DNA of 37,966 nucleotides from Opitutaceae bacterium (GTDB lineage: Bacteria; Verrucomicrobiota; Verrucomicrobiia; Opitutales; Opitutaceae). The stretch covers positions 1 through 37,966 of the forward strand of contig JANJTQ010000072.1 of assembly GCA_024711005.1 (NCBI GenBank), given 5' to 3'. The translations under genes were made by a program, and so were the position numbers. The stretch's first letter is position 1. The number at the start of each line of letters is the position of its first letter. Under the pieces are notes generated by a model. That model did no database searches. It saw only the letters and a list, made by a program, of their open reading frames with translations, and had not been told where the DNA came from. Positions 2,802 to 26,725 of this stretch are shown piece after piece.

Positions 2802-2805
2802 GAGA

Positions 2806-9222: not shown

Positions 9223-9578
9223 GTCGACCGGATTGATCGGCGAGGGAGGGGCGACGTCTTCGAAATAACATCACTGGGGGCGCGGCTCCGGGGTGTTCGA
9301 AGTGCAGTCGGCTGTTTGCCGGTGATTTTGTGAGAGCGAGCTTGCTCGCGATTCCGATCCTCGCGAGCAAGTGGCGGACTGTCGCTCACGCTCGAAACGC
9401 TCCCACGTTCAAACCTTCCGCGGCTACATTCTCTGCGCACGCAATCCCGTGGATCTCCGAAAGGTGTCCGGGATTTTCTTGGATAAGCCATGCCGGAAAC
9501 GATTCCGGGTTGTAGCGCGTAAGAACCGCCACTTACTGGACTTCAGTCGTCCGGACCCCGGTTTCGGGATCGTAATGC
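9223..9578. other. Non-coding stretch between lepB and the element
   Basis: No credible gene is seen in these 356 bases. They contain a REP-like hairpin (arms CTTGCTCGCGA at 9341-9351 and its complement at 9361-9371), preceded by a GAGCGAGCTTG word shared with the lepA-lepB gap. A weaker echo of the same family (CGCTCACGCTCG) lies at about 9383. The stretch ends at the left attachment site of the integrated element. Confidence 0.6.
9341..9371. repeat. REP-like hairpin after lepB
   Basis: A perfect 11-bp inverted repeat (9341-9351 and 9361-9371) with a 9-base loop. It shares the AGCGAGCTTG core with the hairpin at 7826-7875. No T tract follows. Confidence 0.6.
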
Positions 9579-9606
9579 TTATCGCACAATAAACACTAAG
9601 TCCTTT
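9579..9606 (+). other. attL: dif-like XerCD site, left end of the element
   Basis: This 28-bp site reads as an 11-bp XerC-type arm TTATCGCACAA (9579-9589), a 6-bp centre TAAACA (9590-9595) and an 11-bp right arm CTAAGTCCTTT (9596-9606). Bases 9581-9602 match 26665-26686 at 19 of 22 positions. The left arm contains CGCACAA, close to the CGCATAA of classical dif XerC arms. The right arm is poor, as expected if it came from the virus. The reading as a Xer site is inference; the direct repeat itself is seen. Confidence 0.6.
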
Positions 9607-9608
9607 AA

Positions 9609-9827
9609 TCAGAGCAGGTTACGACGGGGCTTTTGCGGTGCTTTTTGGTGCTTGGCGATGAGGGCGAGAACCTCCCAGACCTTTTCGGCCGGGACTGCGG
9701 ACAGCGCCGTGATGTAAATCGCGGCGAGGTTGTTGTTACTGAGGAAACCGAGTGCCTTGCGTTGGTCTTCAAGCGCCACTTGCACGGCATCGGTGGTCAA
9801 AACTTTGAACTGGGATTCAGCGGCCAT
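9609..9827 (-). CDS. Small hypothetical provirus protein (72 aa)
   Basis: Last gene of the left minus-strand cluster, ending 2 bp from the attL arm. The ATG at 9827 (MAAESQFKVL) overlaps the TAA of the preceding gene in the form TAATG, which favours it over the ATG 7 codons upstream. The product is mostly helical by appearance, with a basic tail (KHQKAPQKPRRN). It has no membrane segment and I recognise no family. Its role is unknown. Confidence 0.65.
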   Translation of the reverse strand: MAAESQFKVLTTDAVQVALEDQRKALGFLSNNNLAAIYITALSAVPAEKVWEVLALIAKHQKAPQKPRRNLL

Positions 9828-10213
9828 TATGCGCGTTCCCAATTCCAACCGAGGTATTCAGAAAGGAAATACCACTGGTATTTTGTGCCGAGGGCGCGAG
9901 CGCCTCCGCGTTGGTGTTTGCTGGCTCGGTTGAAGGCTTCAAGGCCAGCGGTCGAAAGCATCATCTCCAGCGCGGCCACTCCGGCCTCGCTGACGTGTTG
10001 CTCGCCTTGCCAGATGGCTTGGATTTGCGGGCCGGTGTGGCGCAACTGATGGCCGATCTCCTGAAGGCGAGCAAACAGACGGCGCGTGTCGGTGAAGACC
10101 TCGCGGCCGCGTGAGGTGGAGACGATGACCACGGGAACCAACAGGCGCGCAAACATCCCGCCCGAGGGTTGCTCGGCGGGAAGCTCGCGAATGATGGCGG
10201 AGGGTAGGGACAT
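9827..10213 (-). CDS. Hypothetical provirus protein (128 aa)
   Basis: The ATG at 10213 shares its A with the TGA of the gene before it (TGATG), so translation is probably coupled. The first 40 residues include a hydrophobic stretch (FARLLVPVVIVS). The rest has a helical Arg/Gln/His-rich segment and an aromatic C-terminus (YQWYFLSEYLGWNWERA). No domain is recognised. Confidence 0.65.
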   Translation of the reverse strand: MSLPSAIIRELPAEQPSGGMFARLLVPVVIVSTSRGREVFTDTRRLFARLQEIGHQLRHTGPQIQAIWQGEQHVSEAGVAALEMMLSTAGLEAFNRASKHQRGGARALGTKYQWYFLSEYLGWNWERA

Positions 10214-10488
10214 CAGAGGAGCTTTTCCCAACCGTCCGCGCCTGCGTAGTAACTACCGCCAACCGAAAGAAAGCAGTCGCCGGTTGTGATCTCGATGGCG
10301 ATGCAGTCAGGACGCCATGAGGTGATTTCAAAGGGCTGACGACGTTCGGGAAGCTCACGCGTCCATCCGCAAAATTCGCCGTCAAAGAAGACGAAGAAGC
10401 CATCCTTGTATTCATCGCGATATTGGGCGGGAACGCGGGTCAATTCGTGGTTGGGGTGGGGTAACGGCGTTTGGCGTAGCGTGGTCAT
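10213..10488 (-). CDS. Hypothetical provirus protein (91 aa)
   Basis: Soluble-looking protein rich in aromatic and acidic residues (DEYKDGFFVFFDGEFCGW), probably a small beta-structured domain. It is coupled to both neighbours: a 4-bp ATGA overlap upstream (10485-10488) and TGATG downstream. I recognise no family; the central GFFVFFDGEFCGWTREL stretch would be a good probe for relatives. Confidence 0.7.
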   Translation of the reverse strand: MTTLRQTPLPHPNHELTRVPAQYRDEYKDGFFVFFDGEFCGWTRELPERRQPFEITSWRPDCIAIEITTGDCFLSVGGSYYAGADGWEKLL

Positions 10489-10694
10489 TGTTCGCCTTTC
10501 CTGACCGCGTCGGCGACGGCGGCATCAACGATGTTTTGCGCGCTTTCGATGCAGCGGGACGAAACCTTCACCAGCTCGCAATAAGCGTGACGGTCGGCGG
10601 GATGAACGAGCGAAACGGCGGCGGCTTGATCGAGGATTTCCCCCTGTAGCTTGGTGAGACTTTGCGCGAGAACGCGAAGGGCGGAGGCGCTCAT
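10485..10694 (-). CDS. Small helical provirus protein (69 aa)
   Basis: Starts at the ATG at 10694 (MSASALRVLAQSLTKLQGE), which overlaps the previous stop as ATGA. The whole protein looks alpha-helical, with Leu/Ala heptad-like spacing and paired cysteines (ELVKVSSRCIES). The function is unknown. Confidence 0.65.
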   Translation of the reverse strand: MSASALRVLAQSLTKLQGEILDQAAAVSLVHPADRHAYCELVKVSSRCIESAQNIVDAAVADAVRKGEQ

Positions 10695-10888
10695 TTGACG
10701 GCCCCCAGTTGAGAGATGCGGAATTTGACGGGCTTGGCCTCGTCGGCGCGGGCTCCGTCGGTGAACGAGTGAAGCAGGCAGGTTGCCCACCCGTTGCGGG
10801 TCAGGGATCGCACGCGATAAATCGCGGGGCTTTTCGAGCGCGGGAGCTGACGCACAAGCGCGCCGGTATGGACGGCTAAGGAGTTCAT
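10691..10888 (-). CDS. Small basic provirus protein (65 aa)
   Basis: Overlaps its neighbours by ATGA on both sides (10885-10888 and 10691-10694). It is basic, with a pattern of short strands (AIYRVRSLTRNGWATCLLHSF) that suggests a small beta domain. No family is recognised. Confidence 0.6.
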   Translation of the reverse strand: MNSLAVHTGALVRQLPRSKSPAIYRVRSLTRNGWATCLLHSFTDGARADEAKPVKFRISQLGAVK

Positions 10889-11142
10889 TTGGCGGCCTCC
10901 TTCGCGATTTCGGCGGCGGTCAGTAAGTCTTCGAGATTGGCGGTCTTTGTGCAGACGATTCCCCGGATTCGCCTCACATCAGGTAGATCGTCGTTGAAGG
11001 GATTCACGCTGGCTTCGAGGGCGATCAAATCCGCGATATATGCCGCGAATGACTGATTGCGGGATTTCGCGGTGAGAACCGCGAATGCATGAAGGCCTTT
11101 TTCAAGCCTTAGCCCGGTTCGGGCGTAGATGGTGGTTTTCAT
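10885..11142 (-). CDS. Ribbon-helix-helix type regulator (85 aa)
   Basis: First gene of the left cluster. The ATG at 11142 (MKTTIYARTGLRLEKGLHAF) starts just inside the palindromic intergenic region. The N-terminus has the shape of a ribbon-helix-helix DNA-binding domain: a short strand (TTIYARTGLRL), helix A (EKGLHAFAVLTAKSRN) and helix B (SFAAYIADLIALEA). Proteins of this type bind as dimers to inverted repeats and often repress their own operon. The divergent neighbour at 11264 also looks like an RHH protein, so the pair may form the lysogeny switch. The fold call comes from pattern only. Confidence 0.6.
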   Translation of the reverse strand: MKTTIYARTGLRLEKGLHAFAVLTAKSRNQSFAAYIADLIALEASVNPFNDDLPDVRRIRGIVCTKTANLEDLLTAAEIAKEAAK

Positions 11143-11263
11143 GGTCTTTGGTAGCCCACCACCGCCGGGGTCTTTGGCTACCAAACCAAAGATCACCCGG
11201 CGGCGTGGTGGTTACGAAAGATACTATTGATACGAGTCGATCAAGGATTTTCCGACGTCTTCC
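11143..11263. promoter_or_regulatory. Divergent operator region between two RHH regulator genes
   Basis: TTTGGTAGCC (11147-11156) and GGCTACCAAA (11176-11185) form a perfect 10-bp inverted repeat. The word TCTTTGG occurs at 11146 and 11172, and inverted (CCAAAGA) at 11186-11192. A larger imperfect inverted repeat links 11157-11169 (CCACCACCGCCGG) with 11197-11211. The region separates genes leaving in opposite directions, both encoding likely DNA-binding proteins, so it probably carries two promoters and shared operators. I cannot place the -10/-35 elements with confidence. Confidence 0.6.
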
Positions 11264-11695
11264 ATGATGCACATGCCTAACGAAGAATCAGGGAAACCCC
11301 TAACGGCACAGATAAACGTGAAGATGACGCCTGAGCTTAAGGCGGCCCTTCTGTCATTCTACGAAGCAACTCGAATCCCTCCCGGGGACCTGATGAGGGG
11401 CTTAGCGGAGATGGCTGTTGATTACCTCGGATCAACAGGGGAATTCTCATTCCCGGGCTTACAGCTGATCAAAAATCGGACATTGCCGCAGGGTTCAATT
11501 AAGCAGCCACGCACAACGGCAGAGCTGGCGCAAAAAAGCGCCATGAATCGCCTAGCCGCGATGCCGATGACCACGGGCGATTCAGGCATTGATTCGGGCC
11601 TCGGCGGACTGGGCTTAGTGAATGCGTCGGGAGGGAAAGCACCGCGTCCGCCTCGCACAAAGACACGCGGTAAACCGGTTAAGAAGACGAGCTAG
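11264..11695 (+). CDS. Ribbon-helix-helix type DNA-binding protein (143 aa)
   Basis: Plus-strand regulator candidate facing the minus-strand RHH gene. Residues about 14-52 fit an RHH domain: strand AQINVKMT, helix PELKAALLSFYEATR and helix PPGDLMRGLAEMAVDYL. A long Gly/Pro/Lys-rich tail ends in a basic cluster (RTKTRGKPVKK). ATG codons at 11264, 11267 and 11273 are all possible starts; I keep the longest. The secreted protein at 11718 follows 22 bp later and may be cotranscribed. The most likely role is control of the lysogenic/lytic decision, which is inference from position. Confidence 0.65.
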   Translation: MMHMPNEESGKPLTAQINVKMTPELKAALLSFYEATRIPPGDLMRGLAEMAVDYLGSTGEFSFPGLQLIKNRTLPQGSIKQPRTTAELAQKSAMNRLAAMPMTTGDSGIDSGLGGLGLVNASGGKAPRPPRTKTRGKPVKKTS

Positions 11696-11717
11696 CCGAA
11701 ATCATCCAATTTCCACT

Positions 11718-12383
11718 ATGAAAAAACACCTCGCATTCCTTGCCTTTATCGTGACGGCTGTCACCGGATTTGCCGCACCTGGCTCTTACCAAGTCGTGAC
11801 GTTGGCGCTTACTAATTCCGTTACCGAGTCGAATCCGCAAACGCTCCTTTCCAATGGGAACAAGGTGCAATCAAACAAGGTGGTTCTCTACAAGATTACG
11901 AATGTAGCGATTCTCTCCGAAGCGCAGCGGATCGGGCTACTCACCGAGGGCTCACTGACTGGCTGGAAAATCGTCTTAGTCTGGGACCAAGACGGAAACC
12001 AAGAGGGGTTTTACGCGTTTAACGGACTGTCTCAGGTATCGCTGGACAGCATTATCAGGATTGACCCTACAATGGGCGAAGACGTCGAAAGCGGGAAATG
12101 GGTAAGGAACACGTCGGATCGCATCATCTCCGGCAGCAAAACCAACACCTACGCCCAAGTAATCGGCCTTTCCGATACGGTTGACGATTACCTCGGAATG
12201 GCCACGGCGAAGATCAAATACACGATAAAGGACATGGGCGTTTTCGGCGTGGTCTGGCTCCCGGGCGCTTTTAGAACGTCGGCAATCGCTGGATATGGAA
12301 CCGACGGCAGCATTTGGGGCGGGACGATTTCATGCGCCAAGGGTATTGCCGTAATGAACACCGGTTCGATTTTCCTTAATTAA
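11718..12383 (+). CDS. Secreted protein of unknown function, possible lysogenic cargo (221 aa)
   Basis: The ATG at 11718 gives a clean Sec signal peptide (MKKHLAFLAFIVTAVTGFAA, cleavage probably after FAA). The frame upstream is open, but it overlaps the RHH gene and is an artefact. The mature protein of about 200 residues looks beta-rich and Asn/Ser/Thr-rich, with no membrane segment. It is oriented opposite to the virion block and next to the regulator, a usual place for genes expressed in the lysogen. It could alter the host surface or be an unusual structural protein. I recognise no family. Confidence 0.75.
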   Translation: MKKHLAFLAFIVTAVTGFAAPGSYQVVTLALTNSVTESNPQTLLSNGNKVQSNKVVLYKITNVAILSEAQRIGLLTEGSLTGWKIVLVWDQDGNQEGFYAFNGLSQVSLDSIIRIDPTMGEDVESGKWVRNTSDRIISGSKTNTYAQVIGLSDTVDDYLGMATAKIKYTIKDMGVFGVVWLPGAFRTSAIAGYGTDGSIWGGTISCAKGIAVMNTGSIFLN

Positions 12384-12398
12384 TCATAAACGAAATCG

Positions 12399-12429
12399 CC
12401 CGCCCCGGCATGGAGCCAGAGCGGGCGGG
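12399..12429. terminator. GC-rich hairpin between convergent genes
   Basis: CCCGCCC (12399-12405) pairs with GGGCGGG (12423-12429) around a 17-base loop, between the plus-strand cargo gene and the minus-strand PIN gene. On the minus strand the stem is followed by a T-rich ATTTCGTTTATGA stretch, so it probably ends the long viral operon. The loop is long, so the call is tentative. Confidence 0.45.
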
Positions 12430-12462
12430 GAGAGATAGGGCCGGCCGGATTGGCCAGAAGGA

Positions 12463-12870
12463 TCACATGTGAAACGCGCCTTTGGGCGAGATGAAGGGGA
12501 CTTTGTAGACCGAAAAATCCCGGTGGTCCGTCGTCAAGACGGTCGATCCGCGATGGCGACGGGCGAGGATCACGGCGCAAGCGTCGGCGTAGTCCATGCG
12601 CGCCTTCCATTTGGTCATTTCATCCAGCACGTCCACGGGGGCGGGATCTTCGACGCTCATGCGTTCAACCAAACGGCGCAGGTCGGCCACCAGTTCGGGC
12701 GCGTTTTCAATTCCATGCGTGGCTTCGGCGACGGCGGCGGAAGTCACGATGAAGGGACCGGGACGCCCCAGCATCTCCTTGCGCGCCCAAGGGTAATCGG
12801 GGTCTTTAGCGTTGATGGCCGCGATGAGCGGACCGGCATCAAGTATTATGATCGGCGAGGATGCGCGCAC
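12463..12870 (-). CDS. PIN-domain ribonuclease, VapC-like toxin
   Basis: The 135-residue protein fits a PIN nuclease, the toxin half of VapBC-type modules that cleaves RNA with a bound metal ion. The acidic set is visible: Asp11 (IIILDAGPL), Glu49 (AAVAEATHG), Asp93/Asp96 (MDYADACAVI) and Asp115 (LTTDHRDF). It is the last gene of the viral minus-strand block. It overlaps the end of a small upstream gene by 32 bp, an arrangement common between antitoxin and toxin. In a provirus it could stabilise the lysogen or act in host takeover. Confidence 0.85.
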   Translation of the reverse strand: MRASSPIIILDAGPLIAAINAKDPDYPWARKEMLGRPGPFIVTSAAVAEATHGIENAPELVADLRRLVERMSVEDPAPVDVLDEMTKWKARMDYADACAVILARRHRGSTVLTTDHRDFSVYKVPFISPKGAFHM

Positions 12871-13138
12871 GGATGTGTTTTTTGAGGGCCTTCCCTTTCA
12901 GCGGGGTAAAGGAGTGGGAGCCGAAAACATGCTCAAGTCCGGCAAAGGGGTTCCCCGGAACCGCACTGACGACAGCCGGCGCGGCCTTTCGACCAACCCT
13001 ACGGCCGCGAGCGGGTTTCTTTGTTTTGGTAAGCGTGCTCATACCCGCAGACTGTGCGGCGGCCGGGCGCGTTGGCAAGAACGCGAGCATGACGAGGCCG
13101 ACGAGCGGCAGAAGCCAGAGCCATGCAGGGAGTTTCAT
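12839..13138 (-). CDS. Small protein upstream of PIN toxin; secreted peptide or antitoxin (99 aa, or 67 aa from 13042)
   Basis: Two readings are possible. From the ATG at 13138 (MKLPAWLWLLPLVGLVML) it has a convincing signal peptide ending near PAAAQS. From the ATG at 13042 (MSTLTKTKKPARGRR) it is a 67-residue basic protein that could be the antitoxin of the PIN toxin it overlaps. The C-terminal half (GLEHVFGSHSF, GKALKKHIRARILADHNT) is common to both readings. No known antitoxin DNA-binding fold is obvious. A GC-rich stem-loop (13154-13187) lies just upstream of the longer start. The frame stays open beyond 13138 to 13384, but that overlaps the next gene and is not used. Confidence 0.55.
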   Translation of the reverse strand: MKLPAWLWLLPLVGLVMLAFLPTRPAAAQSAGMSTLTKTKKPARGRRVGRKAAPAVVSAVPGNPFAGLEHVFGSHSFTPLKGKALKKHIRARILADHNT

Positions 13139-13153
13139 CCGTTGAAAAGTTGT

Positions 13154-13187
13154 CCCGCCCGGGCCGGAGTTAAAGCGGCCGGGCGGG
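13154..13187 (-). terminator. GC-rich stem-loop in the viral operon
   Basis: CCCGCCC (13154-13160) with GGCCG (13162-13166) pairs with CGGCC (13176-13180) and GGGCGGG (13181-13187), with one bulged base and a 9-base loop. On the minus strand it is followed by ACAACTTTTC. It may be a partial terminator or processing site between the lipoprotein gene and the toxin region. Confidence 0.4.
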
Positions 13188-13212
13188 GTGTGGGCGTTGG
13201 AGCCGGCCGGGT

Positions 13213-13809
13213 TTAGGCGGCCGGAAGTTTTTTGAGCCGGAGGTGCCAGAGAGACGGACCGGCAACGGCAAGCGCGCCGCCGACGCCGAGGACGATCCAG
13301 AGCCAAACCGGCATTTCTTCGATGGACAGGCCGAGGAAGCACGCGCCGGCCACCGCGCCCCCGCCAAGTCCAAGGAGGTCCCACCCCTTCACCAAGCCAA
13401 ACGCGCCGGCTGCAAGGCCCGCGACGAGGCCCAGACGCAGCCAGAGCGCAGCCTTGCCCTTGGCTTCCTCGGCGGGCGTCGGCGGGGCGGCCGGGGTGAA
13501 GGCTTGCGGGCCGGTGACCGTGTCGCGGCGTGTCTCCGCGCTGAATAGTGATTCGCCCGACAGCTTCGCCGACATGGAGCCATCGGCGGCGAATGACACG
13601 ACGGAACCGGCGGGCAAGGGGACCTTGGCGGCGGTCGCGTCACTGGATGCTTTGGCCGGTTGCGCGGCGTCTCCGGTTTGCTGGATATGCGCGGAGCCGG
13701 CGGTTGACCTGGCTGCGGGTGCTCTCGCACCGATCGCGCAGCCGGGGAGCAGCATGACGAGTGCGAGGGCGAACAGAATCCAAGCAATGAGGAGTAAGGA
13801 GGCTTTCAT
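13213..13809 (-). CDS. Provirus lipoprotein with C-terminal membrane segments (198 aa)
   Basis: The N-terminus MKASLLLIAWILFALALVML runs into LPGC, a lipobox with Cys24, so lipid attachment by Lgt and cleavage by LspA are expected. The middle is Ala/Ser/Thr/Pro-rich. Residues about 120-190 hold three hydrophobic segments (LWLRLGLVAGLAAGAFGLV, LGLGGGAVAGACFLGL, VWLWIVLGVGGALAVAG). It overlaps the upstream 53-residue gene by ATGA. It could be a virion membrane protein or take part in lysis; neither is shown. Confidence 0.7.
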   Translation of the reverse strand: MKASLLLIAWILFALALVMLLPGCAIGARAPAARSTAGSAHIQQTGDAAQPAKASSDATAAKVPLPAGSVVSFAADGSMSAKLSGESLFSAETRRDTVTGPQAFTPAAPPTPAEEAKGKAALWLRLGLVAGLAAGAFGLVKGWDLLGLGGGAVAGACFLGLSIEEMPVWLWIVLGVGGALAVAGPSLWHLRLKKLPAA

Positions 13810-14395: not shown

Positions 14396-15562
14396 TTAGT
14401 TGGTGAGGATGCGGCCCCACGAGACGCGGAAGGTGAGAGACAGGGTATGGTCGCTGTCTTTGGTTTCGGCGGCGGCGAGTAGGACGCGCAGGCCGGCGTC
14501 GGAACCGGCGTTGCCTGCAAGCCAAAGCGTGCGGATAGAGGTCGAGTTTCCGGCTGCGATTCCCAGCGTGCCTGAAAACGTTCGGGTGAACGATCCGGCT
14601 ACGTAGCTTGCGGCCGTCGCTGCGACGGTGGCGAGCACACCGGCCGTGTTGGGATTGACGAAAGCCTCGGCCAGATCGCCGAGGGCGGCCGTCGACGCGG
14701 ACACGGATACATTCTTGGCGGACGATGGCTCCAACCCGTTGCGGGCCGTGATCGCGCCGGTTGTCGATACGATGCTGATCGCGGCCGATCCACTGGGGAC
14801 CACCATTTGCCCGTTTTGAGTCCAGCCGGTAATCGCCGAGACGTACGCCGTCGGTGTCGCGGGGCTGAGGGTCAATGACAGTTCGACCGTTACGCGTAGT
14901 TGCTGACCCGATACGAGAGTCACGCCTACGCCGTCCAGCAAATCGCGCCCGAACAGGTTTGCGCCCGCGCTGGCGGTGTAGCTCCAACCGATTTCGCGAT
15001 AATTCACGGTTCCCGTCTCGGCGGAGAAAATGAAGGTGCGCTTCATCGTCGCGGTTCCACCGGTCCAGACCGTGCCATGCGCGCCGCTATCGGCGGACAG
15101 CGTGCCCGTACGCTTCGTTTCGGTCGTAAGTCCCGTCTGGTTTACATACCAGATCGTTCCCTCTCCGGCGGCAATGGTGCCAGACGTGGCAACGGTCACC
15201 GTTGATGCGTCGGTGAAGGCAGTCACGTAGACTTCCTCTCCGGTGTCCCATTTGAGCAATCGGCCGACGTCGGCGGCCTCAAAGAAGCCGGCCGATGCGG
15301 TGACCGTGGTCCCGGCGCGGCTGAACGTGACGGCCCCGCTGTCTCGCTTGGTTGGGTCGGTCCCGGTGCCAATGACGGCTTGCGTGAACGAGGCCGCCCA
15401 AGACCTGGCTGCGATGCCGTCGAGTCCTTGGTCAAGGATCAGGTTGCGCTTCCGGGGCAGGCGCATGACTTCGCGGCCGGTCGCGGCGTCGATGACGGCA
15501 ACGGAATAGTGGACTTGTGACCCCATCGAGGGGACGGCGATTGATTTTTTAGGCGAGGACAT
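14396..15562 (-). CDS. Putative spike/receptor-binding protein with phage fibre-like domains (388 aa)
   Basis: The start at 15562 (MSSPKKSIAVPSMG) overlaps the repeat-protein gene by 14 bp; an ATG at 15526 is an alternative. Residues 39-70 (KRNLILDQGLDGIA then IGTGTDPT) resemble the N-terminal region of many phage tail and fibre proteins. Residues 73-144 are a module also found in the capsid protein of this element (F-x-A-A-DVG and VTVA signatures). Residues 174-233 form a fibre-type domain (NYREIGW, LFGRDLL, GQQLRVTVELSLTL), and 326-385 look like a diverged copy of it. In a tailless virus such a protein would most likely sit at the vertex as a spike. The role is inferred. Confidence 0.7.
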   Translation of the reverse strand: MSSPKKSIAVPSMGSQVHYSVAVIDAATGREVMRLPRKRNLILDQGLDGIAARSWAASFTQAVIGTGTDPTKRDSGAVTFSRAGTTVTASAGFFEAADVGRLLKWDTGEEVYVTAFTDASTVTVATSGTIAAGEGTIWYVNQTGLTTETKRTGTLSADSGAHGTVWTGGTATMKRTFIFSAETGTVNYREIGWSYTASAGANLFGRDLLDGVGVTLVSGQQLRVTVELSLTLSPATPTAYVSAITGWTQNGQMVVPSGSAAISIVSTTGAITARNGLEPSSAKNVSVSASTAALGDLAEAFVNPNTAGVLATVAATAASYVAGSFTRTFSGTLGIAAGNSTSIRTLWLAGNAGSDAGLRVLLAAAETKDSDHTLSLTFRVSWGRILTN

Positions 15563-16001
15563 AGGAACCAGATTCGATTGAGGCGTTGAGGGTGGCGGCG
15601 GCGTCCGGCGCATCGGCGGCGATGACTACCAGCGTGTAAGCTCCGGAGGTCAGAGCGGCGGCGAGGTCGGCGGCATTGCTGGGGGCCGTGGTTGCCACGA
15701 CTACCAGCGCGTAATCTCCGGCGATCAGATCGGCGGCGAGGGTTCCGGCGTCGGACTCCGCGCCGACGGCAATGTCGACAACCGGGACGATGGCAGAGAC
15801 GTAATCCCCCGATTCCAGCGCAGCGGCGAGAGTGCCGGACCCGACGGCCGGGGCCGTGGTCGCGACGACTACCAACTCATAAGCGCCGGACTCCAGCGCG
15901 GCCGAAAGCTCCGCAGGGGTGTTAAAGAACGGGTCCGCGTAACGCGGGCGGATGTAGAGCCGGGGCGTCGGTCGGGATTGGAGATTGCCGCATGTGCGCA
16001 T
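15549..16001 (-). CDS. Five-repeat protein of the virion block (150 aa)
   Basis: After about 28 basic/aromatic residues (RPTPRLYIRPRYADPF) the protein consists of five degenerate tandem repeats of 23-30 residues. The core is L-x-A-A-L-x-S-G-x-Y-x-L-V-V-V, usually followed by ATTAP. Each unit looks like a short helix plus a strand, so a solenoid or stacked repeat fold is likely. DNA copies of the unit are still recognisable (ACGACTACCA at 15706, 15864 and in variant form at 15627). It lies between the beta-rich protein and the spike, so a vertex, linker or surface role is plausible. Confidence 0.7.
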   Translation of the reverse strand: MRTCGNLQSRPTPRLYIRPRYADPFFNTPAELSAALESGAYELVVVATTAPAVGSGTLAAALESGDYVSAIVPVVDIAVGAESDAGTLAADLIAGDYALVVVATTAPSNAADLAAALTSGAYTLVVIAADAPDAAATLNASIESGSYVLA

Positions 16002-16010
16002 GGGTCCGCG

Positions 16011-16586
16011 TCACTGCGTCCACCAGATTTCAGCGATGCGACAGGCGACGGCCGCGCCGTTGGCGTTGTAAATTTCGACGTCGCCGGAAATCGGCAATGA
16101 AACCGCCGTCTGCGCAAAGATCGTGTGACCGACCGCGCCCGCATAGTCGCGCACTTGGATCGAGAGCGCGGGATCTTCGTTCGTCACGACGATGGCCTTG
16201 CGGCGGACGTCGCGGTTGTTCGCGGCCGGGGCGGCCGGGAACCGTTGACCGGTCGCCGCGGCGAGGCTGTCACCCGTCCACGGAGCGAAGCGCGTAGGTG
16301 CTTCCATCGCGGACCGGCGATTGTCTACGAATTGAGTAAAGCCAATCCAGACGGCCACGCGGATCGGTGCATCGGAGAGGTTGCGCAGTTCGACGCCTGA
16401 AAATTGGTCTTCGGGATCGGCGTTGAGTTGCTGACCCTGCTCAAGCAGCGATTCCGGGGCTTGGTCGAGCTTCACGCCGAGAAGGCCGGGCGCTTCAACC
16501 ACGCTGAAATAACGGCCGGAAGCCGGAATTCTCAGGGTAGCTCCGGCTTGGATGATGGGACGGTGTAGAGTGCTGTCGGCTTTCAT
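16011..16586 (-). CDS. Beta-rich structural protein, candidate penton or minor capsid protein (191 aa)
   Basis: The ATG at 16586 (MKADSTLHRPIIQAG) overlaps the previous stop as ATGA and is preferred to one 9 codons upstream. The sequence is full of short alternating strands (GRYFSVVEAP, SGVELRNLSDAPIRVAVWIG, KAIVVTNEDPALSIQVRD, DVEIYNANGAAVACRIAEIW) in two similar halves, as in a jelly-roll or beta-sandwich pair. It has no membrane segment or signal peptide. Sitting between the anchored proteins and the repeat/spike genes, it is a good candidate for the penton or a spike base. That is inference from fold pattern and position. Confidence 0.6.
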   Translation of the reverse strand: MKADSTLHRPIIQAGATLRIPASGRYFSVVEAPGLLGVKLDQAPESLLEQGQQLNADPEDQFSGVELRNLSDAPIRVAVWIGFTQFVDNRRSAMEAPTRFAPWTGDSLAAATGQRFPAAPAANNRDVRRKAIVVTNEDPALSIQVRDYAGAVGHTIFAQTAVSLPISGDVEIYNANGAAVACRIAEIWWTQ

Positions 16587-17140
16587 TTTGAGGAGCGGCG
16601 GGAGGAGAACCAAGAGACGAGAGCAGTGACGGCGACGAGTCCGACGATGCCCGCGATGAGGAGGGACTTGATGTTTTTCGAGGCCAGCGGATCGGCTTTG
16701 TTATCGGTCAGGTTTTCGATGGCCATCCGGCTCTGACCTTCCGCGCTGGTCGTAACCCGGTCGATGACGGAGCGCGTCGAATTGATGGTTTCAAGGTTTG
16801 CGGTCTTGAGGTGTTCCACGGCGGAGTTCGCGAGCGCGATAGCGGCTTCGGAACCGTCTTGAATGGTGACGTTGGACCCCTCGGAGGCGGTGACGGTGTT
16901 TGTCTTCTTCGTGTTCGTCTGATCGCCCGCAACCGTGGTCCCGCTCCCGGTCGATCCCTTCACGGCAAAACCTCCCTCGCCTTGGTTTATCGAGTCGTCT
17001 TCAAGCTTGATAGACTCGTCAAGGTTGACCGTCGATTTTGAGCCGGAAGCGGCTACGGATTTCGCGGTCGAATTCGTGCCCGCATTGGCGGAGTTATCGG
17101 CGGCGGAGGTCGAAGTTGAACTTTTGGATTTGGAGCCCAT
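16583..17140 (-). CDS. Ser/Thr-rich protein with C-terminal membrane anchor (185 aa)
   Basis: The first 130 residues are dominated by Ser, Thr, Asn, Gly and Ala and are probably extended or beta-structured. A helical stretch (about 95-145) and one membrane segment (LLIAGIVGLVAVTALVSWF) follow, then a short basic end (SSRRSSK). The stop overlaps the next start as ATGA. The architecture suits a protein anchored in the internal viral membrane. No family is recognised. Confidence 0.7.
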   Translation of the reverse strand: MGSKSKSSTSTSAADNSANAGTNSTAKSVAASGSKSTVNLDESIKLEDDSINQGEGGFAVKGSTGSGTTVAGDQTNTKKTNTVTASEGSNVTIQDGSEAAIALANSAVEHLKTANLETINSTRSVIDRVTTSAEGQSRMAIENLTDNKADPLASKNIKSLLIAGIVGLVAVTALVSWFSSRRSSK

Positions 17141-17146
17141 CGGGGA

Positions 17147-17539
17147 TCAGGTGTTGAGATTTTTCTGAAGGATGACTGCGGCGACTTCCCAGCCCTGTTC
17201 CGTCGTGAGTCGGCGGACCAAGCCGGGGCGTTCGGTTGTGCAGCGGATGACCTTGCAACCGAGTGAACGGGCGTGGTCGTAAATCACGGGTGAGAATTCG
17301 GCCAAGATGCGGTTGGCTCCGTCGCCGCCGGCCAAAAGAGCGACAAAGTATTCCTCGCCGCGTTGGAGCCATGAGAGCGTCCCGACGCGCAGGCCGTCCC
17401 GCATGAGGCCTGCGGTGGGCAGATCGCGACGGACATCGATCACGGCCGGGGAGACGTCGCCGCCCCGGGCGCAATCAGCCTCGGCTTTCGCGCACCAAGG
17501 CGCGCCCACGATGGCCCGGGTGAGTGTTGCGGCAGACAT
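17147..17539 (-). CDS. GNAT-like protein (130 aa)
   Basis: The C-terminal half has the pattern of a GNAT acetyltransferase core: a helix (SPVIYDHARSLGCKVIR), a strand and a loop with a conserved-looking turn (CTTERPGLVRRLTTEQGWEVAAVILQK). GNAT-like proteins of this shape occur in genomes of tailless and tailed phages. The acetyl-CoA P-loop (Q/R-x-x-G-x-G/A) is not clear, so it may keep the fold for a structural use. The call is from pattern memory only. Confidence 0.5.
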   Translation of the reverse strand: MSAATLTRAIVGAPWCAKAEADCARGGDVSPAVIDVRRDLPTAGLMRDGLRVGTLSWLQRGEEYFVALLAGGDGANRILAEFSPVIYDHARSLGCKVIRCTTERPGLVRRLTTEQGWEVAAVILQKNLNT

Positions 17540-18694: not shown

Positions 18695-19720
18695 TCAGGC
18701 GTTGAACGACGGAGCCACAGAGAGCGCCATGCAGTGCACGGCCTGCGCGGTGCCGGAGGTGATCCGGACGTTCAGGCTCTGCGCGATTTCCAAGAAATCG
18801 CTGGTCTGTTCCGTGAAATCGAAACAGAGCGGAAGCGCGAACTGGGTGGCATCGAGACCGTAATCGTTGAGGTACTCGGCGTTTTCGACCTCTTCAGCCT
18901 CCCAATTACGCTTCGAGTCGGCGTTCACCTCAACGTAACTGATGATGCCTTTGATGTCGGCGGTCAGAGCGGTGACGGTCTGCGACTCGGCGACGGTGAC
19001 GACAGTCGTCGACGTGTAGCCGGTGATCGTCGCAGTCGTACCGTCGCTGTAGACGATACGTTTTCCGACATCGGAGGCGGCGAACAGCGCGGCGGACGCG
19101 GTGGCGGTCACATCGTCCTGAGTGATGGTGATCGCGCCGGACGAACGTACCGGAGTGGTCATCAGCACGCGAAGCAGCGGGTGACGGATCGGAAGTTGAT
19201 CGATGTCGTACGGCCCGGCGAGGGCGTTGACGGACAAGATCGACTTGCGCAGGACGTTGGTCACGCGAGTACGGCGGCCGTTGATGTCGGCAAAGATGCC
19301 GCCATTGTCCCACGAGTAGGTTCCGGCAACGCGGAAAATATCGGTGGGCGTGCCAGTGGTCTTGAACGTGAGTTCAACGGTGAAGCTCTTCGCATCGGTG
19401 AGGTCGTACGCGAGGGCTTGCTCATCGGTCTTGTCGGCGCGGCCGGGCTCGCTGAAGAAGATCGGCAGAACGCCGTTCTTTACCTTGATGCCGTTGAGCT
19501 TTGCCTCGGCGATGAGGTAGGACGCGGGGACATCCCATTGGGTGACCTCGTTCACCTTCACGCGGACCCGGTCGACAACCAAGGTTGCGGCGGTCAGCAC
19601 GCTGTTGATGTAGGTGAGAAGCTTGATGCCGTGGATACGGCGGCCGGTATCGAGCTTAAAGGTTGCGGAACCGCCTTGGGTAACGCCTTCGATGCCGGTG
19701 ATTCGATTGATTCGACGCAT
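18695..19720 (-). CDS. Major capsid protein, double jelly-roll, PM2 P2-like (341 aa)
   Basis: The order of features matches corticovirus PM2 P2 as I remember it: an opening strand pair (IEGVTQGGSATFKLDTGRR), then GIKLLTY, a charged-residue strand (DRVRVKVNEV), NGVLPIFFSEPGRAD, the strand FTVELTFK at the end of the first jelly-roll, and a second jelly-roll with YVEVNADSK, a helix (EEVENAEYLNDYG) and SLNVRITSGTAQAV. PM2 P2 is 269 residues. The extra length comes mainly from an inserted module at about 191-258, between HPLLRVLM and YVEVNADSK, which is also present in the spike protein. The protein would form pseudo-hexameric trimers over an internal membrane. It is flanked by a small membrane protein gene and followed by a strong terminator, as expected for the most abundant virion protein. 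Confidence 0.85.
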   Translation of the reverse strand: MRRINRITGIEGVTQGGSATFKLDTGRRIHGIKLLTYINSVLTAATLVVDRVRVKVNEVTQWDVPASYLIAEAKLNGIKVKNGVLPIFFSEPGRADKTDEQALAYDLTDAKSFTVELTFKTTGTPTDIFRVAGTYSWDNGGIFADINGRRTRVTNVLRKSILSVNALAGPYDIDQLPIRHPLLRVLMTTPVRSSGAITITQDDVTATASAALFAASDVGKRIVYSDGTTATITGYTSTTVVTVAESQTVTALTADIKGIISYVEVNADSKRNWEAEEVENAEYLNDYGLDATQFALPLCFDFTEQTSDFLEIAQSLNVRITSGTAQAVHCMALSVAPSFNA

Positions 19721-20356: not shown

Positions 20357-20802
20357 AGGTCGATTCTCGCCCCGGCAACGTCCTTCCATAACCGTATCCC
20401 GATGCACGCCGCGGCGTCTGTGCATGGGCCGTAAACGTCAAACCATCCGGGCAAGATGTCGGTTTTCCATTCCTTCCGAAAGCTCACGATTTGACCGGAC
20501 AAACGGCGGCTTTTTCCGTAACCGAAAGACAGGACCACGGGCCGGCCAATGGCGCAGGTGAATTCGTTCCACTTGCGACCATAGGGGCGGAATTCCTCCT
20601 TTTTTTTGTCCGTCTCGAATGCCTCAAAATATTCGCGTTTCAATGGGATGAAAAGCGGAGGCATCCAATCGCCGTTCTCCATTTGCACCTTTGCGAGACA
20701 CGCCTTTAACCGCGCCATGGTATCGGCAGCGTTTCCTACCTTGTAAGCGTGCATTGCCGCTTTCATGTGATCGTCCAAAAACTGGGCGGTTGATTCGTTC
20801 AT
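20353..20802 (-). CDS. ASCH-like (PUA-fold) protein (149 aa)
   Basis: After a helical N-terminus (1-45), the core begins LFIPLKREYFEAFETDKKKEEFRPYGRKW, close in pattern to ASCH domains (LP-x-K-x-x-Y-F-x-x-I-x-x-G-x-K-x-x-E-x-R). Strands around RPVVLSFGYGKSRRLSGQIVSF and CIGIRLW follow. ASCH domains bind RNA or modified nucleotides and are common in phages. Its start overlaps the packaging ATPase stop (ATGA, 20799-20802). A role in nucleotide or RNA handling during infection is possible; nothing more specific can be said. Confidence 0.6.
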   Translation of the reverse strand: MNESTAQFLDDHMKAAMHAYKVGNAADTMARLKACLAKVQMENGDWMPPLFIPLKREYFEAFETDKKKEEFRPYGRKWNEFTCAIGRPVVLSFGYGKSRRLSGQIVSFRKEWKTDILPGWFDVYGPCTDAAACIGIRLWKDVAGARIDL

Positions 20803-21302
20803 GGCGTGTGCGTCGTCGCGGGGACTCCGCGTTTTTTCAGGATGTAGTGATAATCGGGCAGGTTCGGAGCGGCCGTCAGAGAGCGGTCAACGTATTCCTC
20901 GGCGAGGATGTCCGCCGTCTTGAAACCGACGCGGAACAGCCAGAGAAAACGGCATTGATCGCGGATCGTCGGGTTTACCTGCGTGTGACGTTGCGCGATG
21001 AAAAAACACCGATGGCCAAGGTTTCGTGTCCACGTGGCCAGCTCGGTAAAATCATCATCGAACTTGGAAACCTTAGCGTCGGAGAATTCGACAAAAACGG
21101 CACACCTACGCGCAGCGTTTACCATACGAATGAAACGGTCCGGATCGCTGGATTGCCAGTTGGCTTCCGTCCAACTGTGCCCCCTCGGGACGAATGCGAG
21201 CACGCCGACGCCCTGCTTTCGGAATGTGGCGGCGAGGCTGTTTCGGGCCTTGTAAGTTTTGCCCGATCCAGTCTCGCCGAGAAAGAGGCCGTGAAAACTC
21301 AT
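20799..21302 (-). CDS. Genome packaging ATPase, FtsK/HerA (PM2 P9-like) family (167 aa)
   Basis: NTPase expected to pump viral DNA into the preformed capsid. The ATG at 21302 (MSFHGLFLGETGSGKT) overlaps the previous stop as ATGA; the longer open frame to 21389 has no family match. Walker A is GETGSGKT (9-16). The Walker B strand is CAVFVEFSDA. The sensor/arginine region HRCFFIAQRHTQVNP, then IRDQCRFLWLFRV, is typical of packaging ATPases of membrane-containing DJR viruses. It is short compared with PM2 P9 (about 237) but has all core motifs. Zot-type ATPases of filamentous phages share this fold, but the DJR capsid gene nearby settles the assignment. Confidence 0.8.
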   Translation of the reverse strand: MSFHGLFLGETGSGKTYKARNSLAATFRKQGVGVLAFVPRGHSWTEANWQSSDPDRFIRMVNAARRCAVFVEFSDAKVSKFDDDFTELATWTRNLGHRCFFIAQRHTQVNPTIRDQCRFLWLFRVGFKTADILAEEYVDRSLTAAPNLPDYHYILKKRGVPATTHTP

Positions 21303-21607
21303 CGACGGACCTCGCGAGCGAGAGCGCCCATCAGCGGCCGCATGGGATCGGCGAAGATCATCAGGAGCCAAGCGGCGAGGTACAACCACGCCGTCATGTC
21401 ACGCGGCCCGAAAATCAGCCAGGTCGTAACGACGAGGCAGACGACACGCCACGCCCATGACAGGCAGGCGATGGCGAGCATCATACAGCGGAGGAAATCC
21501 TGATGGGTGATGAAGCCGACGAGCGCCCGCATCGCCTTTTCGAGTAGCGAGCGCTTTACGGCTGAAGGAGCGGCCGGGGCCGCGTCGGGTGTGAGTTCGG
21601 TATGCAT
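21299..21607 (-). CDS. Membrane protein upstream of the packaging ATPase (102 aa)
   Basis: An N-terminal soluble stretch is followed by two or three hydrophobic segments (FLRCMMLAIACLSWAWRVVC, LVVTTWLIFG, AWLYLAAWLLMIFA) and ends RPLMGALAREVRR. Stop and ATPase start overlap by ATGA. It may anchor the packaging machinery at a viral vertex, as small membrane proteins do in PRD1; that is a comparison, not evidence. Confidence 0.65.
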   Translation of the reverse strand: MHTELTPDAAPAAPSAVKRSLLEKAMRALVGFITHQDFLRCMMLAIACLSWAWRVVCLVVTTWLIFGPRDMTAWLYLAAWLLMIFADPMRPLMGALAREVRR

Positions 21608-23541: not shown

Positions 23542-23868
23542 TTATGCGGCGACGGGTGAAGGGTTGGCCGTCGCGGTGCTCTCCGTCATCCCAGACGCAG
23601 CGGATTGAATCGGTCGGGAGAGCAACGCGACAAAGTGAGCGGCGAGCTTGGCGGACGCTTTCTCCGCGGTACTCGCAAGGTCCGCGACACTCACGAGGCG
23701 CTTGTCGGCCGTCGCTCCGGTGCGGACTTCGACAAGCGCGTCGTCTCCGTCTATGCGGAGAACGACGCAGGCCTGAACGGTGACGGAATCCGAAAAGCTT
23801 CCGGCGCGTAGGTGCGGAGCGGATACAAGCAGGGCGCGGCGGGGGAGGGCGGTTGTTTTTTTGTTCAT
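23542..23868 (-). CDS. Hypothetical provirus protein after rep (108 aa)
   Basis: It starts 20 bp after the rep stop. The N-terminal part has alternating strands (ALLVSAPHLR, SDSVTVQACVVLRIDGDDALVEVRTG) like a small beta-barrel, possibly OB-like. A helical segment (VADLASTAEKASAKLAAHFVALLS) and an Ala/Ser/Thr/Pro tail follow. By position it could be a replication accessory such as a single-strand DNA-binding protein, but I see no defining motif. Confidence 0.55.
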   Translation of the reverse strand: MNKKTTALPRRALLVSAPHLRAGSFSDSVTVQACVVLRIDGDDALVEVRTGATADKRLVSVADLASTAEKASAKLAAHFVALLSRPIQSAASGMTESTATANPSPVAA

Positions 23869-23888
23869 TGTTTTCGTTCGTCTGGCCG

Positions 23889-25907
23889 TCAGGCCGTTTC
23901 AAAAACCAGTTGGATCGGGTCATCGAGTCGCCAACCGCCGGGGGTTTGGAGTTCGTCGGGGACAGTTACTGTGCCCGTGTGGACAGAGATGGAGGCGAGG
24001 TCCGAGAAACACGCTTCATCGCCCGCCAGCGCCTCGCCAGCGGCCCATGACGTCCAAGTGCGCTCCCGGAGCTGCTTGACGAGCGGGTGCCTGTTTACGG
24101 CCGCTACATCGCGTCTGTTGCCCATGACGATGACGCGGTTTTCCTTCCGCATGGTCGGACCGGCGGCAGGCGGAATGAATGCAACCACCTGACAGAAATT
24201 CGGCTTGTCCTTCAGGCGGACTGGCAGGCCTTCAGCGATGACAGAGCCCGCACCTTCGCGGTGTGACGTTCCATCGTCCCACATGGTGAACGTCTCGCCG
24301 ACTTCGACAACGCCCGGTGTGCAGCGTGCCGAGGCCGCGCATTCAGCGGCGAAAACCTCGGCGTCGATCAGCTCATCCATTGCCGCCCTTTCCTCCGGGC
24401 TGATGGAGTCGCGGAGCGTTTTGTTGTGGTCCATTCTCACAACCCATTTCCACGCTTTGCCGCCTCCCGTTTTAATTCGGCGGAGCGTTTCCCCGGCTTC
24501 CTTTCGAGCGGCGATTTCCCTCCTTAACGCGCCCATTGGTCGGACAAGGCGACGGTTTGCCGTTGCCTCGTAAAATGCCTTTAGCTGCGTCGGAGCGAGC
24601 TTCAGCAGGTCACCCGGTTTCGTGACGTATTTGACGATTTCGCGAGCGTTACGAATGATCCCGTCGAAATCGCACTTGCAGCCCCACCGGGCGCGGACCT
24701 TTTCGCATAATTCGGTCCAAAGATCGTTATTCAATGGACGTTTCCCGATAACCCTAACGACGCAATGGAAATGCGGATGATAGAGGGGTTCGTCGGAATG
24801 GAGGCCCGTTTTCTCGTTAAATAAACGGCCGAATTCGATCTTTCCGCCCTCCTCGGCGTCGGCGGCTTCCGTTTCGAGTGTGCCGAATTCGGTAGACGCC
24901 AAGACGATTTCGACGCCGTAGTTTTTCCGCATCCAATAATTGAGCTTCGATAACTTCCGGAAATACGTCGCGAGGCGGTCGGGAATATCGGCGACGAGGC
25001 AGCGAGGGCCGGTCGTAAACGTCCAGAATCGGCAAAAATGGTGCTCTTGAATGAAGTATTCGAGAGAGGCGAGAATCGGCGCACGCGACGACGCAGCCAC
25101 AAGCGGGTTGATGCAGATTCGGCGGTACTGGTCGATTTCCTCCCAAACGCCGGAATGGATCCAGTAGACCCAAAGGCCGCAGTCGTCTTGCCTGCGCGTC
25201 TCGACGCCTTCCAGCTTCAGACGGCGGCAGATTTCCGCAGCCATTTCGCGGAGCTTCGCCTTTTTATTTACCTGCTTGGCGTACTCCTCAACGGACATGC
25301 TGTTGCCCGTGTCCGCTTCGGACTCCTCAAGAAACGACTTGATGGCCTCGGCGAGTTCGCCGGATCGTTTGTCTGTGCGGTTGTGCGCAAGGATCGGCTG
25401 CGCGTCCTTCAGCCAGCCAAGACAGGTTTTGTAGTTCTTGTCGTGATACTGGCGAAGGGCTTCAGCCATCTGCGCGCCCGCGATGGTCCGGGGGCCAACA
25501 AAGGTTTGTAGCGCGATGATTTCGCGCTCGGATCGCTCCATCCGCTTACGGCAGCGTTTCGCCTGGGCGGTGAGTTCCTCGGGGCCGACATCGGAAGACA
25601 GGGCGGGCTCTACCATCGCCGGGAGCGTCACAACGCGCTCTTTCGCGAACTGCGCGGCGTTCGTGCGACGATTGGCGGCGATTCGGCACGATGTCGCGAA
25701 ATCGGGCTGTAACGATGAGCGGGCGGCGTCGATGTCGTCGCGGGCGCGTTGCGCGGCGAGGGCGGACGCGGTGCGGTCTGCGTCGGCGACGTAGGGCGAA
25801 GGGTTTTCGGCGCGGTAACGCTCCGCATCGGCGGCTTGCTTGGCGAGGATCGCCAGAGAGCGAGCCTTGCGGGCCTCTGCGTTGCCGAATGCGCCGACGG
25901 TGCTCAT
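23889..25907 (-). CDS. HUH-type rolling-circle replication initiator (672 aa)
   Basis: The ATG at 25907 overlaps the previous stop (ATGA). The three HUH endonuclease motifs are present in order: motif 1 FWTFTTG (294-300), motif 2 HPHFHC with His379 and His381, and motif 3 EIVKYVTKPGD with Tyr427 and Lys430. The motif 3 form (KY-x-x-K) resembles pC194/Rep_1-type plasmid initiators with one catalytic Tyr. The enzyme would nick one strand and stay linked to its 5' end. The first 290 residues are helical and Arg-rich; the 240 after motif 3 have no recognised helicase motif, so a host helicase is probably used. This gene suggests that replication passes through single-stranded or rolling-circle forms, as in PM2. 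Confidence 0.85.
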   Translation of the reverse strand: MSTVGAFGNAEARKARSLAILAKQAADAERYRAENPSPYVADADRTASALAAQRARDDIDAARSSLQPDFATSCRIAANRRTNAAQFAKERVVTLPAMVEPALSSDVGPEELTAQAKRCRKRMERSEREIIALQTFVGPRTIAGAQMAEALRQYHDKNYKTCLGWLKDAQPILAHNRTDKRSGELAEAIKSFLEESEADTGNSMSVEEYAKQVNKKAKLREMAAEICRRLKLEGVETRRQDDCGLWVYWIHSGVWEEIDQYRRICINPLVAASSRAPILASLEYFIQEHHFCRFWTFTTGPRCLVADIPDRLATYFRKLSKLNYWMRKNYGVEIVLASTEFGTLETEAADAEEGGKIEFGRLFNEKTGLHSDEPLYHPHFHCVVRVIGKRPLNNDLWTELCEKVRARWGCKCDFDGIIRNAREIVKYVTKPGDLLKLAPTQLKAFYEATANRRLVRPMGALRREIAARKEAGETLRRIKTGGGKAWKWVVRMDHNKTLRDSISPEERAAMDELIDAEVFAAECAASARCTPGVVEVGETFTMWDDGTSHREGAGSVIAEGLPVRLKDKPNFCQVVAFIPPAAGPTMRKENRVIVMGNRRDVAAVNRHPLVKQLRERTWTSWAAGEALAGDEACFSDLASISVHTGTVTVPDELQTPGGWRLDDPIQLVFETA

Positions 25908-26131
25908 GCAGCGACGGGCGCCAGCCCGGAGAGCGTTTGAAACTTCACCGCGTAACCCTCGGCGGTCACTTCGATGACGAATGTCCCCGGCTTGAAATCG
26001 CGGGCGAAAAGCGCGGTTTTGTATCCGGTCGCCTTGAGCAACTCGACGCACCGGGCCACCTTGTCGGCGGTGATCTTCGGCGATTCCCCGGACTCAAACG
26101 GGAACGGACGAACGACGGGCGCGGCGTTCAT
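25904..26131 (-). CDS. Small provirus protein before rep (75 aa)
   Basis: The ATG at 26131 (MNAAPVVRPFPFESGESP) overlaps the previous stop as ATGA, and its stop overlaps the rep start. The middle has a helix-strand pattern (KITADKVARCVELLKATG, TALFARDFKPGTFVIEVTAEGYAVKF), a compact alpha/beta shape. No family is recognised. Its tight coupling to rep suggests a replication or regulatory role. Confidence 0.65.
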   Translation of the reverse strand: MNAAPVVRPFPFESGESPKITADKVARCVELLKATGYKTALFARDFKPGTFVIEVTAEGYAVKFQTLSGLAPVAA

Positions 26132-26358
26132 GCGGACGCCTCCGGGGCGATCCCAAGCAGGCGGAAAAGCTCTGCTTCCGGGATATAGTGACGGCCGCGA
26201 AACGCGGGATTTGTCGCGATCCGGCCGGCGGCGCACTCGTCAGCGACCCAACGCGGCGAACGCTTCAGGCCACCTTCCTCCAGAGCTGTTGAAAGCTCGC
26301 AGGGCGTGTAATGCTTCGCCCGGACGGGGCAGGGACTGGATTTGCCGCCGTGGTCCAT
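26128..26358 (-). CDS. Excisionase/MerR-like small DNA-binding protein (76 aa)
   Basis: The ATG at 26358 (MDHGGKSSPCPVRAKHY) overlaps the preceding stop. The sequence HYTPCELSTALEEGGLKRSPRWVADECAAGRI, then GRHYIPEAELFRLLG, follows the winged-helix pattern of the excisionase/HTH_17 type. Such proteins serve as early regulators or as directionality factors. With no integrase encoded, it could regulate early genes or influence Xer-mediated excision. The first role is more conservative. Confidence 0.65.
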   Translation of the reverse strand: MDHGGKSSPCPVRAKHYTPCELSTALEEGGLKRSPRWVADECAAGRIATNPAFRGRHYIPEAELFRLLGIAPEASA

Positions 26359-26588: not shown

Positions 26589-26650
26589 TTGAATGCGCCC
26601 CAGTCGACTTGGCCCGGTTTCTGGTTAGTGCGTAACTTATTGCAAATTAA

Positions 26651-26690: not shown

Positions 26691-26725
26691 CACGAGATTG
26701 GAGGGGTTGGGTCGATGCACACGCT

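Follow-up and report, generated by a model that had tools for sequence, protein, structure and literature searches.

Verrucomicrobial proviruses of the order Vinavirales, clade A, are among the closest described systems to the locus analysed here. They combine a PM2-type double jelly roll (DJR) capsid protein with a P1/penton gene and a fibre gene, the last appearing in a figure legend of the accessible part of PMC9502842 as a 'tail fiber protein homolog' listed besides P1 in Vinavirales. Capsid proteins of this type are plain: according to the available sections of PMC9719478, PM2 and a few others are without the elaborate tops seen on most such capsid proteins. A second body of comparison comes from tailed phages. 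In particular, Ig-like domains are common to their tail fibres, coat insertions and decoration proteins, and the decoration proteins serve both shell reinforcement and cell contact, as set out in PMC7602432.

In this work, we analyse a window of 37,966 nucleotides (the whole stretch of DNA under study) from an Opitutaceae bacterium. The region examined holds a Vinavirales provirus whose capsid protein is of the PM2-like DJR type. It resembles the clade A proviruses in host phylum, capsid family, P1/penton gene and fibre gene. Unlike clade A as described in the available text of PMC9502842, where none is mentioned, it has a module common to the fibre and the capsid protein. We consider it probable that this provirus captured a fibre module, a beta-barrel of about 70 residues, in its major capsid protein, where it would act as a built-in decoration domain. 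Like the Ig-like modules of tailed phages (PMC7602432, in the part available), it is a small beta domain that moves between virion proteins; unlike them, it has another fold and belongs to a DJR virus. What is new is therefore the combination of a known virus order with a known module type, and it suggests that a plain capsid can become decorated when the virus borrows part of a fibre. A literature search by titles and the first lines of abstracts, with supplements and most subscription texts outside its reach, gave no report of a fibre module in a DJR capsid protein among the matches listed. PMC5894146 has no mention of insert, Ig-like, carbohydrate, spike, Opitut- or Verrucomicrobi- terms.

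The provirus, its capsid protein and the insertion

The major capsid protein (341 aa; 18695..19720, minus strand) is a PM2 P2-like DJR protein according to Pfam, structure and profile comparisons. It scores 38.7 bits against the Pfam family P2_N and 25.3 bits against P2_C, the latter only 0.3 over the cut-off of 25. A profile built from 14 capsid proteins matches 9t9v at E 3.8e-16 and PM2 P2 (2vvf) at E 7.9e-14. Moreover, the AlphaFold model (mean pLDDT 88.1) superposes on 255 of the 269 residues of P2 (Z 29.4, rmsd 1.9), even though the window protein is 72 residues longer. Its extra length sets it apart from both P2 and the 265-residue 9t9v: neither has the additional domain of 67-68 residues that the window protein carries in the D'E' loop.

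Downstream of the capsid gene lies the P1/penton gene that is a feature of the order (200 aa; 16011..16613, minus strand); the ORF together with five relatives matches the 'Penton base (GP14)' of 9t9r at E 3.6e-4 over 161 positions. Our guess is that 9t9r and 9t9v both come from phage Jorvik. For Jorvik, the available part of PMC10589892 names Gp14 as the putative P1 spike and Gp9 as the putative P2 capsid protein. A probable packaging ATPase (196 aa; 20799..21389, minus strand) carries the Walker-A motif GETGSGKT and matches phrog_2666 at E 2.1e-10 and Pfam HerA_C only at E 0.058, with relatives in 6 of the 8 provirus regions compared. The replication protein (23889..26051, minus strand) matches Pfam Rep_1 at E 0.002, which is below the cut-off, and has relatives in the proviral loci L019 (2e-90) and L020 (6e-67). 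Finally, the ORF at 17147..17539 (minus strand), which has no Pfam match, occupies the position that an acetyltransferase (GNAT) gene has in other Vinavirales, an equivalence of location only with the gene orders in the accessible parts of PMC9502842 and PMC10589892.

Three further genes of the window deserve mention. Between the fibre and penton genes, an ORF of 150 aa (15549-16001, minus strand) contains five repeats of about 25-30 residues around SGxY/AGDY, and L019 has a 29% identical relative adjoining its fibre. In the L022 provirus, a relative of the PIN-domain ORF at 12463-12870 (minus strand), 49% identical, lies close to the fibre gene; the ORF may belong to a toxin-antitoxin pair that these proviruses carry. 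Outside the provirus, a family B DNA polymerase gene (28817-31000, minus strand) lies beside a 4-alpha-glucanotransferase gene (26822-28267).

The extra domain of the capsid protein (residues ~191-258; 18947..19150, minus strand) was delimited by profile and by the alignment gap. In the model, DSSP places strand D' of the second jelly roll at its left border (residues 182-188; 19157..19177, minus strand) and strand E' at its right border (residues 260-267; 18920..18943, minus strand); we infer the letters from the strand order given in the available part of PMC9719478. In two full alignments, these residues face a gap in every other protein (7 and 13, respectively), and the stretch between window positions 180 and 270 holds 91 residues in the window protein vs 23-29 in the rest. 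Altogether, the insert occurs in one of 16 distinct capsid proteins, the other 15 (15/15) being without it at this site. Left out as repeats were L028 and L111 (same as L021), L108 (L022), L110 (L023), L114 (L019), L131 (L107), L132 (L106) and L133 (L032).

The comparison with L019 is the most telling. Its capsid protein (269 aa, from genome G075) is 51% identical to that of the window and matches window residues 1-190 and 260-341, and the module match of this locus falls in a separate fibre gene, not in the capsid gene. In the tree of the 16 capsid proteins the window protein is sister to L019 (support 99/97) and the insert needs one change. As the module is absent from the 15 other capsid proteins, the change was a gain on the capsid side, and as the window protein is sister to the insert-free L019, a single gain suffices. 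An ancestral capsid module followed by repeated loss is rejected by parsimony (1/16, one change). On the evidence of the sequences compared, then, the window capsid protein gained the module. The locus thus amounts to a natural experiment in which a plain PM2-type capsid protein acquired, in a single step, an additional domain that is probably a top. Its comparators are known, namely an undecorated sister and a fibre homologue in the same virus. It makes two questions testable, that is, whether shell proteins get surface modules by fibre capture and what the capsid gains from them, and it points to a site at which a PM2-type capsid protein has naturally taken up, and apparently tolerates, an insertion.

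The capsid insert is known from one genome only. Searching 189 relatives with the capsid protein gave 7 matches including its own genome, G149 matching only weakly over the module region, and the capsid profile matched 3 of 387 genomes of the phylum and 7 of 372 of the order (own genome counted). No second insert-bearing capsid protein was found in these three sets or in viral contigs, where scans with the capsid proteins of the window, L019 and L107 had no match and a scan with that of L032 returned its own record only. Two weak candidates were set aside. The module profile, at E 0.001, gave no support to the module-like match in G149 (E 0.008). A match to P2_N in a 470-aa frame of G030 (E 3e-4, below the cut-off) belongs to a 466-aa protein that the capsid profile does not match, and the same profile found nothing in the 18 kb around it. 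As a separate observation, the capsid protein of L109 (318 aa; 2718-3674, plus strand) has a different extra segment of its own, between the two jelly rolls.

A module common to capsid and fibre

The fibre gene (14396..15613, minus strand) encodes 405 aa from its first ATG and 388 aa from the second (15562), and its product matches phrog_4176 (tail fiber) at E 1.1e-18, with the best stretch at residues 157-401. The initial annotation had called it a spike. An attachment-type protein it is, but 'fibre' fits better since a separate penton-base gene lies nearby. Its module spans residues 88-157 of the 405-aa frame (15143..15352, minus strand), as delimited by homology to the capsid insert, structural alignment and comparison with fibres that are without the module.

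A direct BLASTP comparison of the two proteins aligns fibre residues 90-157 with capsid residues 192-263 at 29 of 72 identical positions (40%, E 5e-5), the second-best match having E 4.2. The local alignment score of 125 was reached by none of 3,000 full shuffles (maximum 94) and none of 3,000 local, 20-residue shuffles (maximum 87). Against the capsid protein, the fibre read in reverse scores 52. A profile comparison had been proposed at the outset as one check on this likeness, and the match it found is significant: a profile built from 40 fibre modules but not from the capsid protein finds the capsid segment at E 9.1e-11. Across the source genome (5.01 Mb, 351 contigs), the same profile at E<=1 finds the fibre and capsid copies only (7.2e-34 and 1.8e-13). 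These results bear out the original claim of a module of about 70 residues common to the spike candidate and the capsid protein. The span then given for the fibre (residues 73-144 of 388, or 15131-15346) is right, and that for the capsid (193-264) denotes the same segment, off by one from the 192-263 of BLASTP.

Thr, Ala, Ser and Val are abundant in both proteins, and two Thr/Ala/Val-rich beta segments could in principle resemble each other by chance. We give this explanation next to no probability. It is refuted by the empty counts in both shuffle designs, by the profile match to the capsid segment, by the predicted strand-by-strand agreement of the two copies and by the lack of a module at exactly that site in other capsid proteins. 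A recent gene duplication is likewise ruled out, here by the scant DNA similarity that remains: over the aligned codons of the two copies 118 of 228 bases are identical, and the third codon position is equal at 11 of 31 identical residues.

The module corresponds to no family in the collections searched. In Pfam, 27 families were touched (best E 0.0028), those among the 25 listed by at most two of 41 module members each; in PHROGs, 15 families were touched (best E 1.9e-4), again by at most two of 41 members each. A tblastn search with the capsid protein, the fibre and the module had no match in 50,697 phage records, a result in which the low-complexity filter may matter.

Distribution among fibres and source of the capsid copy

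Related proviruses hold five relatives of the fibre, 32-54% identical. All 11 fibres found beside the capsid genes compared here carry the module (window, L019-L023, L032, L106, L107, L109 and L112), and for the other 5 of the 16 capsid genes (L024, L025, L128, L129 and L130) no fibre was found in the stretches examined. Fibre relatives with an adjoining capsid gene occur in Geminisphaera colitermitum TAV2 and in metagenome-assembled genomes of Verrucomicrobiota, Opitutaceae and Opitutales; a distant fibre in Bowmanella comes without a capsid match.

A wider view comes from viral contigs, where a scan with the fibre profile gave 79 loci, taken from the best 80 of 89 relatives. Counting frames with a single match of 200 or more profile positions (which excluded L082, L096, L100 and short pieces at contig ends), and removing 10 identical repeats from 101 frames, we obtain 91 distinct fibre-family frames, 83 with the module and 8 without, counts biased towards fibres with the module, as the module contains one of the two patterns used in the search. 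In six of the eight module-less fibres, eight residues separate the GTGT and QTGLxxExKR motifs; the other two have 16 and 30. At E 0.001 the module was found in 94 of the 9,548 open frames of the searched loci, namely the window capsid protein and 93 fibre frames, the latter including repeated copies of the same locus. All other fibre-profile matches reach past the module columns. Tailed-phage genes are present in three of five contigs checked (L027, L042, L047, L051 and L097): L097 and L051 encode tailed-phage tail proteins, and L047 encodes proteins for tail assembly and a tape measure protein. By these counts, the module is usual in the fibre family but not obligatory, and this family extends to tailed phages.

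This pattern bears on two early proposals. The module was described as movable, and it does behave as a movable unit, as the capsid protein gained it and the fibres carry it optionally. Its proposed role in trimerisation is weakened by the eight fibres of 91 that are without it. For a carbohydrate- or cell-binding domain, suggested early as well, nothing specific speaks: the module alignments have only two near-invariant columns, one Gly and one border Leu, so that no sugar-binding site can be named.

Several side observations concern the fibre family. Second copies of the module occur in the same fibre in L091 (residues 407-451), L096 (192-255) and L100 (209-271), a further sign of mobility. 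In L042 (9947-13569) and L097 (9986-13851), three fibre-family genes stand in or near tandem on one viral contig. A weak module match (L137, G045:C221:1840-2016; E 9.6e-5) lies in a 1,481-residue open frame from another genome of the same family, and is the sole candidate seen beyond fibres and the window capsid protein.

Where did the capsid copy come from? The tree leans to another virus and the neighbourhood, with the only two places in 5 Mb lying 3.6 kb apart, to the provirus's own fibre. In a tree of 61 modules, 60 of them from fibres (23 of 84 modules below 45 bits were left out), the capsid copy joins the tailed-phage fibre L047 with support 92/91 and falls outside a 12-row clade that contains the window fibre and the other provirus fibres; a smaller tree of 28 rows again places it with L047 (95/83). 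The L047 module is also the closest to it, with 58% identity over 53 aa. Capture from another virus, most likely from a tailed-phage fibre or decoration gene and independently of the own fibre, would account for this grouping, and we put its probability at a little below even. Fibre-family genes with a module are often met in viral contigs, and the contigs that bear them include at least two tailed phages, L051 and L047. On the other hand, the trees rest on few columns (77-79) and the capsid branch is long (1.07 and 1.4), and AU tests reject none of three placements with the window fibre or related fibres: with the own fibre p-AU is 0.096, with six of the fibres closest to that of the window 0.151 and with ten of these 0.244.

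The own fibre gene may instead have been the direct source, an in-frame stretch having recombined into the capsid gene 3.6 kb away and then diverged. The two copies belong to one structural gene cluster and are the sole occurrences of the module in 5.01 Mb, the own fibre ranks among the higher pairwise scores of the capsid copy (124, vs 142 for the best), and placement of this copy with the own fibre is not rejected by the AU test. Set against this are the repeated grouping with L047, the slightly better scores of the fibres of L106 (133), L019 (130) and L021 (125), and the little DNA similarity that remains. Altogether, we regard direct copying as a possibility of some weight, although clearly short of an even chance. 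The exchange between shell and spike genes suggested at the outset holds in so far as homologous modules are present in both genes; a direct exchange is unproven, given the grouping with L047 and the p-AU of 0.096.

Fold, position on the shell and possible role

In the capsid model, the insert forms strands at residues 191-208, 221-224, 229-235 and 240-257 and a short helix at 215-217. The fibre module (fibre model pLDDT 91.8) has the same helix and strands at a constant offset, 102 residues earlier, with agreement at 53 of 60 positions, compared to 43 for the best other offset beyond a one-step slide. The initial annotation had named differing predicted folds as the observation that would speak against a common module. 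The secondary structures agree in register, though this agreement is not fully independent because the alignment behind the capsid model contained five fibre-module fragments.

Structure searches with the fibre module point to virion proteins of tailed phages. The best matches are the tail nozzle 8ck1 (Z 8.9, 32% identity), the LME-1 portal-tail structure 9efk (Z 8.4, 20%) and the decoration protein 8eci of Arthrobacter phage Bridgette (Z 8.2, 32% over 66 residues), a Z of 8 being close to the level that the structure-comparison tool calls common. Lower scores go to a gene transfer agent chain (7.0), the lambda tail tip (6.2) and ubiquitin E1 enzymes (5.1-6.4), whose matched part we take to be the FCCH domain. 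Foldseek ranks 8eci first (probability 1.00, E 0.016), with no match reaching 0.001, and such a fold search is informative only for families in its listing. A sequence profile search of the PDB gave 8ck1 at 6.6e-6, PcsB at 0.023, an F2-pyocin side fibre at 0.19 and 8eci at 0.25. The predicted fibre copy thus resembles a barrel of the 8eci/8ck1 type. The likeness to 8eci extends to both fold and sequence, and a capsid role is implied by the name of that protein; unlike 8eci, which is a separate protein of a tailed phage, the module here is a domain inside a DJR capsid protein.

A weaker match connects the module to residues 222-344 of the P22 coat protein (9pgg, Z 5.4), presumably its insertion domain (I-domain). 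Both cases have a small beta-barrel inserted in a coat protein. The P22 carrier is, we assume, of the HK97 fold and the carrier here is DJR, so that we read the likeness as an analogy of use rather than kinship; a Z of 5.4 may reflect only a common arrangement.

The position of the module on the shell follows from the strand order. In the model, the second jelly roll consists of strands 156-166, 169-173, 182-188, 260-267 and 270-276, a helix, and strands 296-299, 316-322 and 326-336, and the insert sits between the third and fourth of these (D' and E') with both jelly rolls intact. The first jelly roll has the same pattern with an additional helix between G and H, an extra helix also reported for PM2 in the accessible part of PMC9719478. 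In the DJR capsid protein of PhiCjT23, the same available text has the BC, DE, FG and HI loops pointing outward. From this orientation and the D'E' strand order, the loop with the module probably faces outside, in keeping with the surface location first ascribed to the module.

On this basis, we can propose how the capture might work. A self-contained barrel whose strands are predicted to continue D' and E' would fit a hairpin loop without disturbing the host fold, and the coat protein could tolerate the insertion for that reason. An outward D'E' loop would place three modules on each capsid trimer and, on a PM2-sized shell (pseudo T=21), about 600 copies (60 x 20 / 2), as opposed to a few per vertex on the fibres. 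The module on the capsid would correspond to a tailed-phage decoration protein that has become fused to the coat protein, and could either reinforce capsomer contacts or offer many weak contacts to the cell surface. By its position and its kin, the capsid module is most likely such a built-in decoration domain. A more specific scenario, which we hold to be rather doubtful, is a cross-realm capture in which a fibre module of a tailed phage (Duplodnaviria) entered the exterior D'E' loop of a DJR (Varidnaviria) capsid protein, the roughly 600 copies then acting as a multivalent adhesin or cement. If true, one of the plainest known capsids became studded with fibre domains.

The provirus itself may be defective, as far as its sequence indicates, and this bears on function. 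The window ORFs scanned for families (part of all ORFs) included no integrase, no exact direct repeat of >=13 bases was found between the flanks 9000-13300 and 23800-27200, and the available text of PMC9502842 raises the doubt that verrucomicrobial members may be inactivated. Together with the fact that the insert is a single case, these observations lend some credit to the idea that the module has no function on the capsid and is merely carried along in a decaying provirus, at no cost or a slight one. We consider this unlikely. Both the fibre and capsid frames are open, without internal stops; the codon make-up of the insert is close to that of the rest (GC3 0.81 vs 0.79); and the module motif and predicted fold have been kept after long divergence. 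A built-in decoration domain is the reading we prefer.

Beyond the module, the fibre model as a whole superposes over 247 residues (Z 17.6, rmsd 3.6) on 9h4p_BD, a tail protein of 953 residues from the archaeal Haloferax tailed virus 1. This likeness suggests that Vinavirales, tailed phages and a tailed virus of archaea may have a fibre fold in common.
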